A stretch of 27,310 nucleotides of DNA from Saccoglossus kowalevskii (lineage: Eukaryota > Hemichordata > Enteropneusta > Harrimaniidae): assembly GCF_000003605.2 (NCBI RefSeq), contig NW_003132352.1:175989-203298 (forward strand). Reading direction: 5' to 3'. This document shows positions 441 through 11,863 of this stretch, piece after piece (the stretch's first letter is position 1; each line of letters begins with the position of its first letter). The notes beneath the pieces were generated by a model that did no database searches, had not been told where the DNA came from, and worked only from the letters and a program-made list of their open reading frames with translations. The position numbers were made by a program, and so were the translations under genes.

Positions 441-1061
441 TCAAAACACCAGAGCAATAAGAACAAACCCATCTACGCGGATATTTTGAAGCAGAGGCCC
501 AAGCATGCGTATATGTTTAGAACTGCGCATGTTTGGAACTGCATTATGCAGATGTTGGTTCTCCAACACATTGTTTTCATTTACATATTTTAATTTGCTT
601 TTCACACCAGTTACGCAGTTAGGTGTATTGTTTTTGTCAAGCTCCATTCCAAGTTGGTATGCTTCATGAACTAGAGTATTTTCATTTTAATTTTTAATTT
701 TTAGCCAATAATTTATTAAGTGCTTTATGCTCGTTAGAAGTAGGGGATACCAACCAAGTTCTAATAGACATGCTAAATTACTAGCTTTACAGTTAACTTT
801 ACAGAATTTGGTGTGTAGCTTCTCCATAGGAAGCATATTGTTATGAAGATCTTTGGATTGTAGTATGCAATCACTAGCCAATACTTCACTGCAATCGAGT
901 AGGACTTGTTTGATTATGCTGTCAAATAGTTTTATTGCGATGTTATTTTCTGAGTATAATAGTTGTTTCATTTTGAATAGTGCTTTTGTTGCTCTGTGTC
1001 CAAGATCTTCCTGTGCTTTGCTGAGTTTACCTGAAGAATTTATTTTTAGTCCTAAATAAGT
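441..1061 (-). pseudogene. Decayed non-LTR retrotransposon reverse transcriptase, 3' part
   Basis: Read on the - strand from about 1061 downward, the translation begins YTYLGLKINSSGKLSKAQ and continues through LFDSIIKQVLLDCSEVLA, KLHTKFCK, LELGWYPLLL and INYWLKIKN. This is the order seen after the catalytic palm in many invertebrate non-LTR reverse transcriptases (YLG..I..SG, LFD..IKP.L.YGSE, KLH..FCK, ELG.YPL). The frame crosses one stop (complement of 687-689) and continues as NENTLVHEAYQLGMELDKNN, so the stop is a point lesion in a copy that is otherwise in frame here. Similarity fades below about 560. The catalytic YxDD region is absent, so the copy is 5'-truncated and inactive. The clade (CR1/jockey-like or other) is not certain. 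Confidence 0.72.
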
Positions 1062-1157
1062 ATACGTTTTCCAAATCACGTATGTAAATAGGTCTCTATG
1101 TGGTAGTTGAGTGCGGTAACTGAGCGTCTCAGTTTTTATGAAGATATGCGTTGAGCA

Positions 1158-1257
1158 TACGCTCACTTTCAAAAGTAAGCGTGGAGCCAAACAATGGAAA
1201 GCTTGAGTGCGCTCACTTTTAAAAATAAGCGTGGGAACAAACCATGGAATGCTGGTG
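1158..1257. repeat. Two 50-bp tandem units, each with a palindrome
   Basis: Two copies with an exact 50-bp offset (GCTCACTTT at 1161 and 1211). Each holds a dyad of the form CGCTcACTTT...RTAAGCG followed by GTGGgA.CAAAC.ATGGAA. Related single words occur at 1267 (TACGCTCAGTTTAA) and 1453 (TACGCTTACTTTTA), so this is a small local family. Function unknown. Confidence 0.65.
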
Positions 1258-1265
1258 ATGTAATG

Positions 1266-1726
1266 AAAGCTACGCTCAGTTTAACATGAAGTTGATACAA
1301 GTTCGTTTCAGAGGTCTAACTTAAGTTAAAGAATCCAATCTGGATTCACATGAGCAGGACGTTTGTTAAAACTGAAGCAACCATATTTAAAAAAATATTC
1401 ACGCAGTTTGAACTCATGACCTTGTAAGATGGACGCGTCTGGTAATGAGGGACTACGCTTACTTTTACGTGTAATAGTAGGCATGGGACCTACAATAGAA
1501 TGAGAAGTGCGCGTGTCTGATTTCAAGTTACCATAAGTCACCAGTATATACATGAAGTTTTGGAGAGTACTATTTTGATTTACGCAAGATAAAAGCCGCG
1601 ATCAGCTACAATTATATTTAATAGTGATAAAGGTGCAACTCTGGCGTGAAATACAACATGACCAAAATATGTTTTAAAAATATTTATTCCTGTTATTGTT
1701 TTAGTGTTGTGTGACCAACAATAGAG
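1266..1726 (+). promoter_or_regulatory. Upstream region of the 1727 gene; possible 5' UTR acceptor
   Basis: No gene is supported here. The last 50 bases hold a pyrimidine-rich tract ending TTATTGTTTTAG at about 1704, followed 22 bases later by the start codon. This resembles a 3' splice site, so an untranslated exon may lie further left and 1705 could be the acceptor of the first coding exon. An A/T word TTATATTTA near 1611 is only a weak TATA candidate. Which alternative is right cannot be settled from the sequence. Confidence 0.3.
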
Positions 1727-4700
1727 ATGGCTTCTGGAGACCAAGCTACTTACCAACAGGAAGAAGGTGATCAGTCACATTATCAACTTGATAGAAACAG
1801 GGCTGATAATGTTGTAAAAATCTTTCTTGAGTTGATTGACTTACAACGTGAACTGGCTGCACTGAATGGCAAATTAAATGCAATCATCACACAGTGTAAA
1901 AATGTACCAAGCATTGCTACCAAGCTGGAGATAATAGATAATGCCAATCTGCCAAAAGATGAGTGGACGAAAGCTGATTCAAATGAATTAGAAAAACAGG
2001 TTGAAAAAAATCATGGATATAGTGCAAGACTTGATGACCAGGTAGGTAATATGAGGTTATCACCTGCTATCATTTGATAAGAGCGACGTCATGGGTTAGT
2101 ATTACCCAGAATCCATGATCCAAAGTGATATCAGATCTAAGCTTGTTGGTGACCATGCATTTGTACCTACTGCTCTCAATATGGTTTTTGAAATGAACAG
2201 CAATATTTCTCTTCTTCACAATATTTTTTTCAGAATAAACTTTTTATTTTTTTGTCATATTTGTCATTGAACCATGCAATTAATTGTTGTTATCTAGTTT
2301 GAAATTCTTATTTCACAGCGTTAAAAATAATACTATCGCACAATACTCTGCATCGTGTTCAAGCACACAAAGAACTGTTTAATGTGAAATATCAGTTAGT
2401 GCTATTCCCCCTAAACATCACTACTATGAATGATATGTACCATAGTCAAGTGATAATATGACTATGCATGAATGTATTACACTGGTAGTGAAGTTACATG
2501 TACCTGGTGGCTGCCATGTTTGTTTTTATCAGCAGAGAACACTTACACTCGTAATCATTCCATATTTGGAATTCACATTTCCTAATATGGTAGGATGCAA
2601 ATACCTAGTGCAATACCGCAAAATTAAGGCACGCTGTAACTTATGGCATTACAGTGACAGATGTATAATAATAGAAAATATTATTATGATTGTTGTGTTG
2701 TTTTGTATTTGATTTGTTTTTATCCAAATTGAAATAACCAGTTCGTTTGTTTGTTTGTGTCTAATATAATAAAAAGTCTAATTTTCTTTATATCGGTAGG
2801 TTGTACAGTCTGAGACCACTGGGAATGCAGATATTGTTGGTGACACAGGGTTTTCAGAGCTTAGCAGGTTAACAATGCATCCGGTGGCTACTCCGACTGG
2901 TAATGAGGTGTCCACTGTTGCTGTTCTCCAGGAACAGCTGTGTACACCTGAAGTTGACTTGACTCAAAGATCCAAGAATTTGTTGAATAAGTCCCAGTTT
3001 GCTGAGCACAAACCTTGTAAGAGTACAGATGAGTTCTTTTCTACTGTGGCTCTACAGAAACAGCCAAGTGCTGCTAAAGTTGACTTCACTCAAAGTGCTC
3101 AGATTCTTTTGAAAAAAGAGAAGTCCCAGGACAAGGTAGACTATGTTGAAAAGAAACTTGGTAAGAATCTGAATATGGATGAGTTTGATCTGAAACATTG
3201 TAAAACTAACAAAGAATGTATTAAAGTTGTTGTGCCACTCGCTGACCAAGATTCCTTATCACAGACAGCACCCACGCATCGTAAAAGTAATTTTTTTTTA
3301 CAAAAGTGTTTCGAGGTCAGGGAATGTGACGATCATATTGAGTTGTCACACCATAAGATGGACAATGTTGAACTTGGAAATGGTGAAGAACTTCCTATGC
3401 ATGTTGAAGAGACCATTGAAAATGATGTTGATGCTGGAAACATGCCATGTTATTTGTCAACGAGTGATAAAACGTTTGACAGAGACAAAACTCGCATTCT
3501 AAAGGCCAAAAGCAAAAGGAAAATAGCTATGCAATTTCCCTCCTATAGTGATATGTTGCATTCAGTAGACAGAAGAATTGCCAACTCTCTCCAGTCCAAC
3601 AGAGATAATGTTGATGAGACATCAGACATGTTAAAAGACAATCCACCTTCTGAATTGACAAACCAAGCAAGCGACAAAACAGAAGCAACTACTAATGTAC
3701 CAAAACCTAGCAAGGTAGGGGGCCTTCAGATGGCCCATCACAACCAGCCATTCTATTCACAGCCAACTGGTTTGCATGAATCAGTAAGACCGGCAAAAAC
3801 TGAGAAGTGTATGAAAACCAGTGCCTTGACCTTGACCAAACCTTCACATGGCACAGATGTCACGGGAGATGTCAGCAGTGTCATTGGTTCAGAGCAGTGC
3901 TATATCCATGGTGCTGGGTTACCTGCGTATCACCCAAAGTTGATAACAAACTTTATGCATCCATGGAGTGATAAAAATATGTTACATCCAGTGGACAGAA
4001 GAATTGCCAGTGACAGTCCACATATAAAATCACAATGTCTTGGCAACTCTCTTCAGTCCTATAGAGATAATGTTGATGAGACATCAGACATGGAAAAAGA
4101 TTATCAACCTTTTGAATTAACAAACCAAGCAAGCGGCAAAACAGAAGCAACTACTAATGTACCTAGCAGCAAGATATGGGGCCTTCAGATGGCTGAATCA
4201 CATCAAGTTGTACAAGCTTCAAAAAACACTTCACCGGTGTTGTCAGCTACAGCTAGGAAATCGGTTGCACATGTACCGGTAGATGTGAACTTGGATGTGC
4301 AAAACCAAGGGTATTTGAATGCAATTCCTTCTTCACCATGTGAAATCCAATCATCTTATCCACAGCCAACTGGTTTGCATGAAACATTGAGATTGCCAAA
4401 AAATGTGAAGTGTATAAAAACCAGTGCCTTGACCTTGACCAAACCTTCAGATGTCACGGGAGATGTCAGCAGTGTCATTGGTTCAGAGCAGTGCTATATC
4501 TATAATGATCGATTACCTGCGTATCACCCGAAGTTGATAAAAAACTTTATGCGCCTACGCATTGGTGTTCCATTTCCAGTACAAGTAGGGCAAGACCTCC
4601 CTAAGCGTTGCTTACGAGGAACTGGTACATATTCTGTGCAGAACAATTATTATGCCTACCCAGGTAATATTGTCATGCATTGTCAAAATCTGTTGTTTCA

Positions 4701-5970
4701 TATTTACATAGTGTGGAATACTTTATTTTCACTGGAATTAATTTACGCTGAAAAGGCTTTTTGGGTGTTTTGTATGGAATTTATTTTCACTGATTTTTGA
4801 TGAGTTGAATGTGAAATATAGGAAACAAAGTATATTCCCTGGTTTTTATTTTCACTGAATCATCCCTGCAGCAAAAATAGTGAAAATAAATTCCAAGCGA
4901 AAATAAAGTATTCTTCAGTAGTGTGTTCAATAATGCAGTACTGGCAGGTCAAGTTTTATAGAAAAAGAATATGCTATTTGAATAAAAAAAAAATAGTTTA
5001 TAGGGGAAAATCAATGCACTCTTGAAATAATTGAAATTGAAAAATTTGAAATTAAAATAAAATTGAAATAATGTCCAGTGTTTAAAATAAATATAAACAT
5101 GTATGCTATTATTTTTGTAAACGGATTATGCTTTGAGCCATTTAGGGTTACAGTCATGTGTAAACAAATGTACACATGCTTCAATACATAATCCGCAGTA
5201 TGTTATTAAAATGCGTGATCTTGCTTGATCTCATTTTCCAGGAGTTCGGGTAAAACTGAAGTATAATTGCCGACATATTGCCACAGTCGCATGCTTGAGA
5301 CCAACTGATACTATCAGTGAGCTGCGTCATATTGTCAAATACAAGGTACTGGATTCAAGTAATGGGAGGGAGGGAGGGGGGGGGGGTTACTGTCATTCAA
5401 AGATATTCATTAAATCTTGTAATCTTCCAACCAGCAGCAGTATTGTGACAATCAAAGCATGAATGGATGAATCCTTTGACACAAGTGTTAATGTCCATAT
5501 CATCACATGCTAAAAATTGGCCTGGTCGGCCCTTCACTACTGTAAAATACTTTATTTTCACTTTTTGGGTGTTTTGTATGGAAATTATTTTCACTGATTC
5601 TTCACTAGTTGAATGTAAAATATAGGGAAAATAGTATATTCGCTAGATTTTATTTTCACTAAATCATTCTTTCAGCGAAAAATAATTCCAAACAAAAATA
5701 AAGTATTTTACAGTATTAGAAATTGTGGATTTCTACTTCATGGCAATATTGGGGGCTTATCAACTCTATTTATGGATTCAGTTACAAGCATAATCGCTAA
5801 CAAAACAAATTATCAATTTGTTTTTTTTTCAGGTGTCCCAGGAAACTGGTTTACACATGGATCGATTTGTGCTTCACAATGCTATCACTGGCATGCTGCT
5901 TGATGGTGGTAGTTACATTGGACACAACAACTTGACAGTGGAGATCAAACCAACCTCACGTTGGTTTTAA
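1727..5970 (+). CDS. Four-exon gene: coiled-coil protein with C-terminal ubiquitin-like domain
   Basis: Exons are 1727-2041, 2800-4663, 5242-5345 and 5833-5970 (stop TAA 5968-5970); together they make 2421 nt, or 806 residues. Donors are CAG|gtaggt, CAG|gtaata and AAG|gtactg. Acceptors end ggtag|G, ttccag|G and ttcag|G. Intron phases 0, 1 and 0 keep the frame open throughout, which is strong support. Residues ~25-100 are helix-rich (ELIDLQRELAALNGKL). Residues ~130-690 are Ser/Thr/Asn/Lys-rich and probably disordered, with duplications. Residues ~727-800 read as a beta-grasp fold: VRVKLKYN, then RPTDTISELRHIV (compare ubiquitin EPSDTIENVKAKI), then FVLHNAITGMLLDGGSYIGH and LTVEIKP. The protein ends TSRWF with no Gly-Gly, so it is unlikely to be conjugated; the domain would instead mediate binding. 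No ortholog is recognised. Reading past the exon 2 donor would stop at 4798-4800, giving a possible shorter isoform. The gene structure is well supported; the domain call is moderately supported. Confidence 0.8.
2042..2799 (+). other. Intron 1
   Basis: It runs from GTAGGT to ATATCGGTAG and joins codons in phase 0. It contains no recognisable repeat or nested gene. An open frame at 2458-2712 is rich in Cys/Ile/His with no recognisable domain and is taken as chance. Confidence 0.75.
2908..3117 (+). repeat. Short internal coding duplication (exon 2)
   Basis: Protein residues ~143-170 (STVAVLQEQLCTPEVDLTQ...) and ~186-211 (STVALQKQPSAAKVDFTQ...) align with a 43-residue offset. Both follow the pattern STVA.LQ.Q....VD.TQ....LL.K. 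They look like two diverged copies of a short segment inside the disordered region. Confidence 0.6.
3547..4558 (+). repeat. Large tandem duplication inside exon 2
   Basis: Segment A (about 3547-3956) and segment B (about 3966-4558) encode the same series of blocks: M.LH.VDRRIA, NSLQS.RDNVDETSDM, ELTNQAS.KTEATTNVP, QPTGLHE, KTSALTLTKPS, DVTGDVSSVIGSEQCYI, then LPAYHPKLI.NFM. The DNA is nearly identical over long runs, so the duplication is fairly recent. Segment B carries an extra ~55 residues (about 4195-4360) between the GLQMA and QPTGLHE blocks. Frame is kept in both copies, which argues for coding selection or recent origin. Confidence 0.9.
4709..4920. mobile_element. TACTGTA-type MITE, diverged copy in intron 2
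   Basis: The left end GGAATACTTTATTTTCACT and right end AAATAAAGTATTCTTCAGTA are inverted relative to each other and match the better-preserved copy at 5538-5715. The words TTATTTTCACTG and GAAAATAAA recur inside. The reading frame past the exon 2 donor runs into this element before stopping at 4798-4800. It has no coding capacity; it lies wholly within intron 2. Confidence 0.75.
5364..5386 (+). other. G-rich tract (G-quadruplex-prone) just after the exon 3 donor
   Basis: GGGAGGGAGGG followed by an 11-13 G run on the sense strand, starting 18 bases downstream of the exon 3 donor (5346). At least four G-runs with one-base spacers are present, which fits a quadruplex-forming pattern in DNA and in the pre-mRNA. 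Confidence 0.7.
5538..5715. mobile_element. 178-bp TACTGTA-type MITE in intron 3
   Basis: The terminal inverted repeats are near perfect: TACTGTAAAATACTTTATTT at the left, and the complement of the right end (5696-5715) reads the same. The ends begin with TA, as in elements that duplicate TA on insertion (Tc1/mariner and similar); superfamily is inferred only. The interior repeats ATTATTTTCACT several times. It lies fully within intron 3 (5346-5832) and has no open frame. Confidence 0.85.
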
Positions 5971-6201
5971 TAGAAATCCAGAACAAACGCAATAGATATG
6001 GGTGGGTGGAGTGAAAGAGTGAGTGCTGTATTTGATTTGTTTGTGCTAAAACGTCATCTAGCACCGTTGTAGTATGCAGGCTTGCATACTCCACTTACTC
6101 AACTGTTATGCATACAGCTATGAAGGATGGCTCACTTGGAAAAATGTATAGTCTTATATAAATAAGAGAATCAGCTCTACATATTGTACAATTTGAGCAT
6201 C

Positions 6202-6355
6202 AATAAAAATTTACATAACCACATACAAGGTTTCAGAAACTACAAGCAGCTGTAATGAAATTTTGAGCTTTTAACCCAATTTAATAGATGGGTTGTTGCA
6301 TTATCATCTTTGCTGCTGTCTTCAATTTTATTAAATGTTTTTATCGAGCAATAAA
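6202..6355 (+). terminator. Candidate poly(A) signals of the ubiquitin-like gene
   Basis: AATAAA occurs at 6202-6207 and again at 6350-6355, 232 and 380 bases after the stop codon at 5970. Either would give a short 3' UTR. AT-rich sequence makes such hexamers common, so which one is used is unknown. Confidence 0.45.
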
Positions 6356-6359
6356 AGAT

Positions 6360-7370
6360 GTAAAAGTAGTATGGTTATCACAAGATAACTGCAGAATAAG
6401 CACTCCGGTAGTAAGAGTTACCTTCATTTGATATCACCTTCATATGCTCATAGAGTGTTGCAGTGTTTTATAGATAAACATTATTTCAGGTAGTTTGCTA
6501 CCATTAAACATAAAAAAAAATGATAACAATAAATTATTCAATGATTGTTTGTATAGGTCATTTGTATTTAATGTTTTTCACGAAGAAAGAAGGCTGTGTT
6601 TTCAAGAAAACTTATACAAAATAATCTAAAAAGCGGCCATTTTGGAACATTTTCATAGAACACATTATTCCACAGATAACTGGTATTCAAATTCTCCCAT
6701 TTTTTAGTGACTCTCATCTGTTGCCCTCATAACACTACATTTTGAGATACATGTATGATGGAATGCTTCTGCCAAAGGAACCAATGGTATACTGTTCAAT
6801 TTTCACGTTTGTTTTGTGGAAAACTTAGTTAGGTGACCATATATTTTTATTTCAGAATTTTGAACCTGACAGTAACCTAACCAATCTTGCTGGATTTTGA
6901 GGATTTCCGAATATATTTTTTTCAATGGTAGCAAACTACAGATGAAAGCGTCGCTGCTTATTTACTGGTCTTTTTCTGCAGCATAATAAAACTTTAAATA
7001 TGGATGAGAATTGACATAATTTTTTGTGATGTTTGATAATGTAATTGATAAATAAATTAGACTAAGATTTATCGTGACCCTGTTCTGGTACTATATGCAG
7101 CCCACATGTGGGTTTTCATTCAATAAAATAATTAAATTCTCTAATACGCTTGTGCACTGGTTATTTGTGTACATACATACAGTCTTTGCATATGCGTATT
7201 AATGTTTTTAATTTTTTTATCTGAGTAATGCAACATTTTTAGCTCATGAATCGTAATCTTATTTTATCTACAGTGTGGTGTATCGAACATTTTAAAAATT
7301 ATTTTTTTGTCCATATTACATTCTTAATATTACAGTTTTTGGTTCAGCCTTATTTATATATTATATATAT
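6360..7370. other. AT-rich intergenic stretch, nothing supported
   Basis: No ORF with coding character, no recognisable repeat end and no RNA gene were seen. It probably holds 3' flank and old repeats. Confidence 0.5.
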
Positions 7371-8289: not shown

Positions 8290-8530
8290 GGGGGGGGGGG
8301 GGGGTTAGCTGGTACAGTTTTACGGAAAATAAAAAGGGCTTTTTACAGTGAAAATTGAATTTTGCAGTGAATTGTGTCATCTAGTCGTTTTACAGTTTCG
8401 AGAATGTAATTTCTCTGGATTATTCTGTACGACTTTTTTTATTTGGATGTAAATTCTTGTACGTACCGAGAAAAATGACACATTTTTACAGTGCATGAAA
8501 AAAATATTTGATTGATTACGTAGTACCGGT
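8290..8530 (+). repeat. Dispersed repeat, inverted copy 2, preceded by a poly-G run
   Basis: A run of 15 G (8290-8304) leads into TTAGCTGGTACAGTTTTACGG. The sequence then follows the complement of 1-265 to about 8528 (TTGATTGATTACG). It lacks ~40 bases present in copy 1. With copy 1 it forms an inverted pair about 8 kb apart, enclosing the four-exon gene. A further stretch to 8640 ends in a C run, so the element may extend there. Confidence 0.8.
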
Positions 8531-9852: not shown

Positions 9853-9900
9853 ATTAAAGCGGGAGGGTTGTCACCTGCACACGCCCGGGAATTGAGTCCC
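9853..9900 (+). repeat. Second TTAAAG-type repeat segment
   Basis: TTAAAGCGGGAGGGTTGTCACCTGCACACGCCCGGGAATT (9854-9893) matches 24094-24135 (TTAAAGCAAAGGGGTCGTCACCTACGCACACACGGGAGTT) with scattered changes. It may be the end of another element. It sits immediately before the reverse-transcriptase remnant, so it could mark a junction. Confidence 0.5.
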
Positions 9901-10364
9901 AAGCGATGATAACAGCAATATCGAGAGATTTAGGATGGCAAGACATCAACTTTATTCACGATAAATCGCGAATACAGTATTTGGACAGATTACAAAAGAT
10001 GAATGATAACAGGTGGACCAAAATAGTTTTCTCTAAACTACATGAATCATATCAGAACAAGGCTAAACTTGCTTGGAACTGGCCAAAATATATAAACAAT
10101 ACCCTAATTCAAAATGATATGGATCATGTTTATGGCCTAAAAAGACCACAGAATATTAGTTGGATTAAAAGTTTCTATAAAATTAGTGAAGAAAATGAAA
10201 TAAAGCGTTGAAACTATTCAAGACATGAAATCCCTAAAAGCACTATGGTTGGATTAAACACAACAATAATCAAAGAAAGCTTAGAAAGAACCATGTGCTG
10301 AGAGTATTGGAGACACATTAAATATAATTCAAAATTACTTAGCTGGAAACTAATTATGCAAATC

Positions 10365-11400
10365 AGAAAATTAATATGAACAGATTTGAGTGTAAAACTA
10401 ATGAGGTCTGCGCAATGTAACAGAAAATCTATGTTTCTAAGTTTAATTGAAACATGATTAGAACCAAAAAATTATGAATTATTATACTTATTAGGGAATT
10501 AATATGAACAGATTTTTACCCCAAACTAATTAGGTTTGTACATTGTCCTAGAGCATCTTTGTACTAAGTTTCATTGAAATGGAATAATTAGTACTTTAGA
10601 TATCAGTGTGAAAGCTTAAAATTGGTTAATTATGCAAATTAGGTAATTAATATGTACAGATTTTAACCCACAATTATCCAGGTCTNNNNNNNNNNNNNNN
10701 NNNNNNNNNNNNNNNNNNNNNNNNNNNNNNNNNNNTATTAGGTTCTGAGCAGTGTCATATGACATCTATGTACCAAGTTTCATTGAAATGTGATGATTAG
10801 TACTTATATCAAATGCTGAAAATTAATTAATTATGCAAATTAGGTAATTAATATGTACTGATATTACCATAAAAACTATCAGGTCTGTGCAGTGCCATAT
10901 GACATCTATGTACCAAGTTTCATTGAAATGTGATGATTAGTACTTGAGATATCAGTGGGAAAACCGTAAATTGACTAATCATTATGCAAATTAGGTAATT
11001 AGCATGTATGTTCAAAGGTTCATCAAAATCCAATGAGTGGTTGTTTAGATATCAGTGGAACAATCATGGAACAGCTAAAAATCAGCTAATTATCATGCAA
11101 ATTAGGTAATTAATATGCACGGATTTTTACCAAAAACTAATCAAATCTGCGCATATGTTCAGAGCATCTATGTACCAAGTTTCATCAAAATCCAATGAGT
11201 GGTTCTTTAGATATCAGTGGAACAGTCATAGAACAGCTAAAAATTAGCTAATTATCATGCAAATTAGGTAATTAACGAGCATGGATTTTTACCAAAACCT
11301 AATCAAATCTGCGCATTGGCCCAGAGCATCTATGCACCAAGTTTCATCAAAAACCGATGTATGGTTTTTGAGATAGCAGTGGAACAGTCGGACACACATA
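10365..11400 (+). repeat. Tandem array of ~150-bp monomers with ATGCAAAT words
   Basis: The unit boundary GGTAATTAATATG (or variants) occurs at about 10367, 10494, 10642, 10843, 10993, 11104 and 11267, so units are ~110-165 bp, mostly ~150. Each unit runs through a CCAAGTTTCATTGAAAT-like block, a GATATCAGTGG-like block, and TTATGCAAATTAG. Later units are more alike (CATCAAAATCCAATGAGTGG), suggesting local homogenisation. The array ends with a CA-rich run and a hairpin. It interrupts a reverse-transcriptase remnant. Confidence 0.9.
10686..10735. other. Assembly gap (50 N)
   Basis: Fifty N bases inside the satellite array. The left flank ends in ATCCAGGTCT and the right flank starts TATTAGGTTCTGAGC. 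Both align to the same place in the ~150-bp monomer, so the true gap is probably either a short overlap or a whole number of missing monomers. Confidence 0.98.
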
Positions 11401-11427
11401 CACACACACAGACACACTAACTGCAAA

Positions 11428-11459
11428 GACTCCCATTATGTGCTTCGCACATGGGAGTC
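11428..11459 (+). other. Terminal hairpin of the satellite element
   Basis: GACTCCC-ATT-ATGTG, loop CTTCG, then CACAT-GGGAGTC: 12 paired bases with a 3-nt bulge. It closes the array just after a CA-rich run and is followed by AAAAAGGAAAA. A degraded form lies near 7590-7620 on the other strand, so it is part of the repeat rather than a local accident. Confidence 0.8.
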
Positions 11460-11863
11460 AAAAAGGAAAATTATACAAAGGATCCCCTTGATCATCATGG
11501 CATCTCAATCCTCTTTAATAGACTTGAAAGGGAATAAAACAGGATGGGAAAATTATAAACGTGACGGGGTATGTAAGCTTTGTAATGATGGAAAGGAGGA
11601 TGTTTATCACTTTTTATTTCTTTGCAAATCAACTAACCACTTGAGAAGTAAATTCTATTCAGCACTGACCGATACAATAGCGGAAAGTGGTGAAGAAATA
11701 ATACATCAAACAAAATCCGAAACTTTCTCACCCACCTATGGAAATTCAGAAACAAGAAACTGAATGATTTACATGTATGAATTAATGCTTCTTATAGATT
11801 TTTTTCTTTTCTTTTTTTGTTGTTGTTGACTTGTATGTTACTTTTTACGCCGTTTCAAAGGCT

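Follow-up and report, generated by a model that had tools for sequence, protein, structure and literature searches.

A stretch of 27,310 nucleotides from the hemichordate Saccoglossus kowalevskii (contig NW_003132352.1, positions 175,989 to 203,298; the window in what follows) carries near its start a four-exon gene whose predicted product combines a helical N-terminus, a long and partly duplicated middle and a small C-terminal domain, here called the tail. A preliminary description, made from the sequence alone, had seen in this tail a likeness to ubiquitin. Here we set the tail beside the ubiquitin-like domains of the same genome and beside the C-terminal end of a NIK-like kinase encoded on the same scaffold, and we consider what a protein of this layout could do in NF-kappaB signalling.

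Gene model and layout of the protein

The four exons (Table 1) join in frame across GT-AG introns of phases 0, 1 and 0, in this order, to give 806 residues and a stop codon (window 1727-5970), and the perfect joins claimed in the preliminary description hold as regards frame and splice sites alike. Scored with a matrix of consensus splice-site frequencies, the three donors come 1st, 6th and 27th among 334 and the three acceptors 10th, 3rd and 2nd among 324 in window 1500-7000, the second-ranking acceptor being that of exon 4, and the frame of exon 2 stays free of stops over 666 codons, as compared with a longest run of 218 in 100 Markov-simulated windows. An acceptor-like AG stands just before the ATG; since the acceptors at 1725 and 1727 score weakly and an in-frame stop lies 5' of the ATG, a coding exon upstream of exon 1 appears unlikely. 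The CpG observed/expected ratio is 0.18 in exon 1, 0.32 in exon 2 and 0.30 in exon 4, with 0.85 upstream, which could be a sign of a methylated, transcribed gene body; the sign is a weak one because exon 3 is not CpG-poor (0.86) and CpG is scarce in some further tiles of the window as well. Exon 1, exon 2 and the tail are each present in single copy in the 572-Mb genome, as searched with expectation values (E) up to 10, 1 and 0.001, respectively. Scans of the window for Rfam families and tRNAs found none, and viral contigs searched with six peptide patterns gave no match. Judged by its sequence, this is a genuine protein-coding gene, which confirms the original observation.

The helical N-terminus of the preliminary description is borne out by AlphaFold2, which predicts one long helix in exon 1 alone, with a predicted local distance difference test score (pLDDT) of about 95 at residues 31-50; compared with PDB folds, the predicted fold of exon 1 found no match (best E 9.6). 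Exon 2, modeled alone from a single sequence, has a pLDDT below 50 at 580 of its 621 residues, and since this model was made without an alignment, such low values fit disorder without proving it. The prediction thus supports a mostly unstructured middle. The middle is also duplicated, as had been stated: the two units listed in Table 1 have 137 aligned codons in common, all gaps between them are multiples of three, and the copies are imperfect. The term “low-complexity” applied to this region was, however, too strong given its composition. Differences between the units number 21, 17 and 21 at codon positions 1, 2 and 3, and the NG86 estimates of nonsynonymous (dN) and synonymous (dS) divergence are 0.14 and 0.23, so that purifying selection would be weak at most in this part of the protein. 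A self-BLAST of the window returned the full self match alone and missed the duplication.

No part of the protein could be assigned to a family in the databases searched. In Pfam the 806-residue protein gave no match over the cut-off and no Ser/Thr kinase domain, the best for the tail being a sub-threshold GSG-1 (0.12); for exon 2, Pfam and NCBIfam gave only a sub-threshold OmpV (0.12), and NCBIfam gave nothing but sub-threshold matches for any part. Among PDB sequences the best matches had an E of 0.27 for the tail (ILF3) and of 0.89 for exon 1, and there was none for exon 2 or for a three-row profile. A doublecortin domain, considered by eye for the DGGSY stretch, was dropped for want of a Pfam match.

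Table 1. Features of the gene and of the end of its NIK-like neighbour (window positions, except where the scaffold is named)
Feature	Position	Strand	Remarks
Coding exon 1	1727..2041	+	residues 1-105; in-frame stop 15 bases 5' of ATG; donor rank 1/334
Long predicted helix, possible oligomerisation helix	1766..1900	+	residues 14-58; AlphaFold2 without alignment
Coding exon 2	2800..4663	+	residues 106-726 and first base of Gly-727 codon; mostly unstructured (predicted)
Duplication unit 1	3529..3963	+	residues 349-493
Duplication unit 2	3967..4560	+	residues 495-692; 12- and 48-residue stretches missing from unit 1
Coding exon 3	5242..5345	+	remaining bases of Gly-727 codon through Lys-761; N-terminal half of tail domain; phase 1 in, phase 0 out
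Coding exon 4	5833..5970	+	Val-762 through Phe-806, then stop codon; C-terminal half of tail domain; without terminal Gly-Gly
Candidate poly-A signal AATAAA	6202..6207	+	by sequence
Neighbour, last coding exons	scaffold 130899-131019, 132288-132394, 132813-133007	+ (same strand)	130899-131019 is the top-scoring candidate

Several repeats accompany the gene. Two copies of a short element resembling a miniature inverted-repeat transposable element, its ends inverted with respect to each other (AATACTTTATTTTCRC and the complement), lie at 4709-4921 in intron 2 and at 5538-5715 in intron 3, and two 185-base stretches in inverted orientation, complementary at 92 percent, flank the whole gene (1-185 and 8342-8526). 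Remains resembling retrotransposons of the long interspersed nuclear element class were seen by eye at 687-1280 (minus strand) and 9858-10211 (plus strand), and further ones at 11377-11763 (plus strand) match the zf-RVT profile at 0.00054, below the cut-off. A degenerate repeat array at 10335-11406 comprises up to five copies with ACCAAGTTTCAT-like segments and has a run of 50 N inside.

The tail compared with ubiquitin-like domains

The panel used for this comparison consists of the 19 places in the genome that match the Pfam ubiquitin family PF00240 at E up to 0.001, and the panel profile was built from 17 of them, those of at least 50 residues. On this profile the tail scores 9.8 bits, as compared with 9.4 for the best of 2,000 shuffles of itself, and it comes first of 2,002 sequences. 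Against single panel members, the score was reached by no more than 10 of 2,000 shuffles in four of the 19 cases, and about half of the members gave no signal. Aligned locally with human ubiquitin, the tail was equalled by 10 of 10,000 shuffles and, in a separate run, by 4 of 5,000; the global alignment was not significant (450 of 10,000). These scores taken together indicate that a weak ubiquitin-like signal exists, and we describe the tail as weakly ubiquitin-like in sequence, with the proviso that this signal was tested only after the likeness had been chosen in the preliminary description.

Thus, the ubiquitin-like look of the C-terminus survives, narrowly, in that it beats 2,000 of 2,000 self-shuffles, but membership in the family is not supported. 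The profile search, proposed beforehand as a check, turned out negative, as the Pfam ubiquitin model fails to find the tail; its locus is absent from the 19 PF00240 places of its own genome at the cut-off given above, and the PDB sequences contain no ubiquitin-like match for it. The protein terminates in SRWF, and the absence of a C-terminal Gly-Gly for conjugation had been read correctly. Elsewhere in the genome, five divergent ubiquitin-like repeats occupy a single 666-residue open frame (C1644:1273333-1274610) that is unlike ordinary polyubiquitin, and C1911 carries a three-repeat ubiquitin-like frame similar to it.

The tail compared with that of a NIK-like neighbour

A NIK-like kinase gene lies on the same scaffold (C2387, 115839-133007) and on the same strand, 44.7 kb upstream of the gene described here. 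It was first spotted by eye on the scaffold, and its kinase exons were likewise joined by eye. Against PDB, its kinase domain has MAP3K14/NIK as the best match (8.6e-38) and MAP3K8 as the next (3.8e-37), the gene carries long disordered exons, and its tail resembles that of human NIK, with 7 of 10,000 shuffles scoring as well locally and 8 of 10,000 globally. Of the 300,810 bases of the scaffold 94,607 are N, and 30 kb between the two genes read N. The N begin right at both window edges (145894-175988 and 203299-227539).

Compared locally with the last three coding exons of this neighbour, the tail obtains a score that 5-9 of 20,000 shuffles reach under three gap settings; when the exon preceding the neighbour's tail is left out, the counts are 16 of 10,000 locally and 57 of 10,000 globally. 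The aligned stretch spans P-G-x-R-V to V-S/F-Q-E/Q-T-x-L, and exon 3 aligns with the penultimate exon of the neighbour. Both tail introns coincide. The first interrupts a Gly codon in phase 1, within the P-G-x-R-V context, and in both genes the donor reads CCA G before the gt and the acceptor is followed by GA; the second is in phase 0 between K and V, exactly 15 residues past the start of the PT motif. The control was a set of mechanically assembled same-phase exon pairs from both strands of the scaffold, with the gene itself left out. At moderate splice thresholds the neighbour ranked first of 445 first exons, and the junction fell in the same aligned column in 66 of 10,074 pairs, the neighbour's pair being the best with a score of 42 and the next reaching 31. 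The tail (Gly-727), the neighbour and human NIK all keep the glycine with which the domain opens; by our own count, we take it to be residue 860 of human and 855 of mouse NIK.

There are, however, a number of results that weigh against a common origin of the two tails. Exon 3 alone is equalled by 59 of 10,000 shuffles, with its score tied by a chance candidate, and exon 4 alone shows no similarity to the neighbour's last exon (5,691 of 10,000 shuffles; rank 136 of 440). With loose splice thresholds and the score as the only criterion, the neighbour comes only 8th of 1,282. Compared directly with the human NIK tail, the tail shows no similarity (equalled by 1,694 of 10,000 shuffles locally and by 6,459 of 10,000 globally), nor does it with a two-sequence profile of the neighbour and human NIK tails (578 of 5,000); hhalign gave a probability of 0.2 percent and an E of 0.27. 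A whole-genome search with the neighbour tail returned itself alone at E up to 10, and exons 1 and 2 showed no similarity to the exons of the NIK-like gene in four comparisons. Moreover, the tail is about equally like ubiquitin-like domains, whereas the neighbour tail is not (rank 483 on the panel profile), and since the neighbour was spotted by eye, with the human NIK tail in mind, the match was not found blind. Because some tail comparisons are modest and others fail, we hold homology of the two tails to be probable only. The statement that no family with this layout is known is now incomplete, given that the terminal exons of the NIK-like gene have the places and phases of their introns, and some sequence, in common with the tail.

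A possible role in NF-kappaB signalling and relation to known systems

The reading that we favour, and to which we give roughly an even chance, is that the gene joins a docking tail of NIK type, now diverged, to a body of long N-terminal helix and long disordered middle, without the kinase. Its most likely origin would be a local partial duplication of the neighbour's last exons, which became joined to unrelated 5' exons. The main rival, unlikely in our estimation though worth taking seriously, is that the protein is an adaptor ending in a ubiquitin-like domain that arose independently and would bind a partner in the ubiquitin system or in signalling, and that the likeness of this domain to the NIK-like exons reflects a shared beta-grasp pattern together with chance. 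The local alignment with human ubiquitin, the first place on the 17-member profile and the four responsive panel members are what one would then expect, but the global alignment, the unresponsive half of the panel and the failure of Pfam, the PF00240 places and PDB to yield a ubiquitin match are not, and the coincidence of both introns between two genes of one scaffold would be left unaccounted for.

Both likenesses could also be due to chance, or be very remote, if this were a fast-evolving, lineage-restricted gene with a tail that is not close to known domains. The lack of any Pfam, NCBIfam or PDB match, the single copy of each part and the weak constraint in the duplicated middle are consistent with such a gene; since sequence and intron places agree jointly with the NIK-like neighbour, however, we consider it improbable. 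That the model itself is wrong or describes a pseudogene, either because exons 3 and 4 are foreign to it or because more coding exons, possibly for a kinase, are hidden in the upstream N, seems to us very improbable indeed. In its favour are the 30 kb of N upstream of the window and the acceptor-like AG before the ATG, but there is no frame break, the six splice sites are well ranked, the stop and weak acceptors near the ATG argue against further 5' exons, and the tail similarity runs across the join of exons 3 and 4.

If the tail is indeed of the NIK type, its function may be sought in what is described for mammals. There, IKKalpha and p100 are bound by NIK through its C-terminal domain. The aly mutation, a single glycine change, is G855R in this IKKalpha/p100-binding domain (PMC7696043), and aly abolishes the binding of IKKalpha (PMC5377069). 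By analogy, the tail may dock on the animal's IKK or NF-kappaB precursor, and the protein may cluster through its helix. A kinase-less protein that docked IKK without phosphorylating it could then act either as a decoy competing with NIK or as a scaffold gathering IKK, of which the decoy is, as a guess, the simpler. In sum, what the analysis establishes are the gene model, a predicted helix, a NIK-like neighbour, and intron places and a modest degree of sequence in common with it; homology over the whole tail, a beta-grasp fold, docking on IKK and action as a decoy or scaffold are what we infer. The earlier suggestion that the protein could be a scaffold in ubiquitin or in immune signalling would thereby be narrowed to NF-kappaB, reached via a NIK-type docking tail.

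We therefore offer, tentatively and as a somewhat doubtful proposal when taken as a whole, that NIK was split in two in this animal's lineage, into a full kinase and, next to it, a gene without kinase in which only the IKK-docking tail is left, borne on a helical and disordered body that associates with itself. The latter would be an inhibitor or scaffold dedicated to non-canonical NF-kappaB signalling and, as such, a natural dominant-negative NIK. Were this true, a natural kinase-less protein with a NIK tail would make the solo role of the docking domain and decoy control of NIK amenable to study outside vertebrates, and the structurally unsolved NIK tail would be suggested to be a ubiquitin-like (beta-grasp) domain. 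Among the full-text matches listed, none described a kinase-less NIK paralogue or a ubiquitin-like NIK tail.

Among known systems, ubiquitin (PF00240) is approached by the tail in PTDTI, which stands at the place of PSDTI, and in the helix and the L-x-DG pattern, and it differs in that the tail has no Pfam match, no terminal Gly-Gly and a longer helix region. OASL, UBTD1/2, SF3A1 and UBX proteins likewise have a ubiquitin-like domain that lies at their C-terminus or close to it. The Pfam and PDB searches give no tie between them and the gene; to our knowledge, none of them pairs a long helix at the N-terminus with an unstructured region of about 600 residues. From NIK/MAP3K14 the gene differs in having no kinase domain and a shorter tail, which ends in RWF, but it is alike in the extreme C-terminal position of the tail and, by our alignment and count, probably in the conserved first glycine, and with its NIK-like neighbour it further shares two intron places with their phases and a modest sequence similarity.

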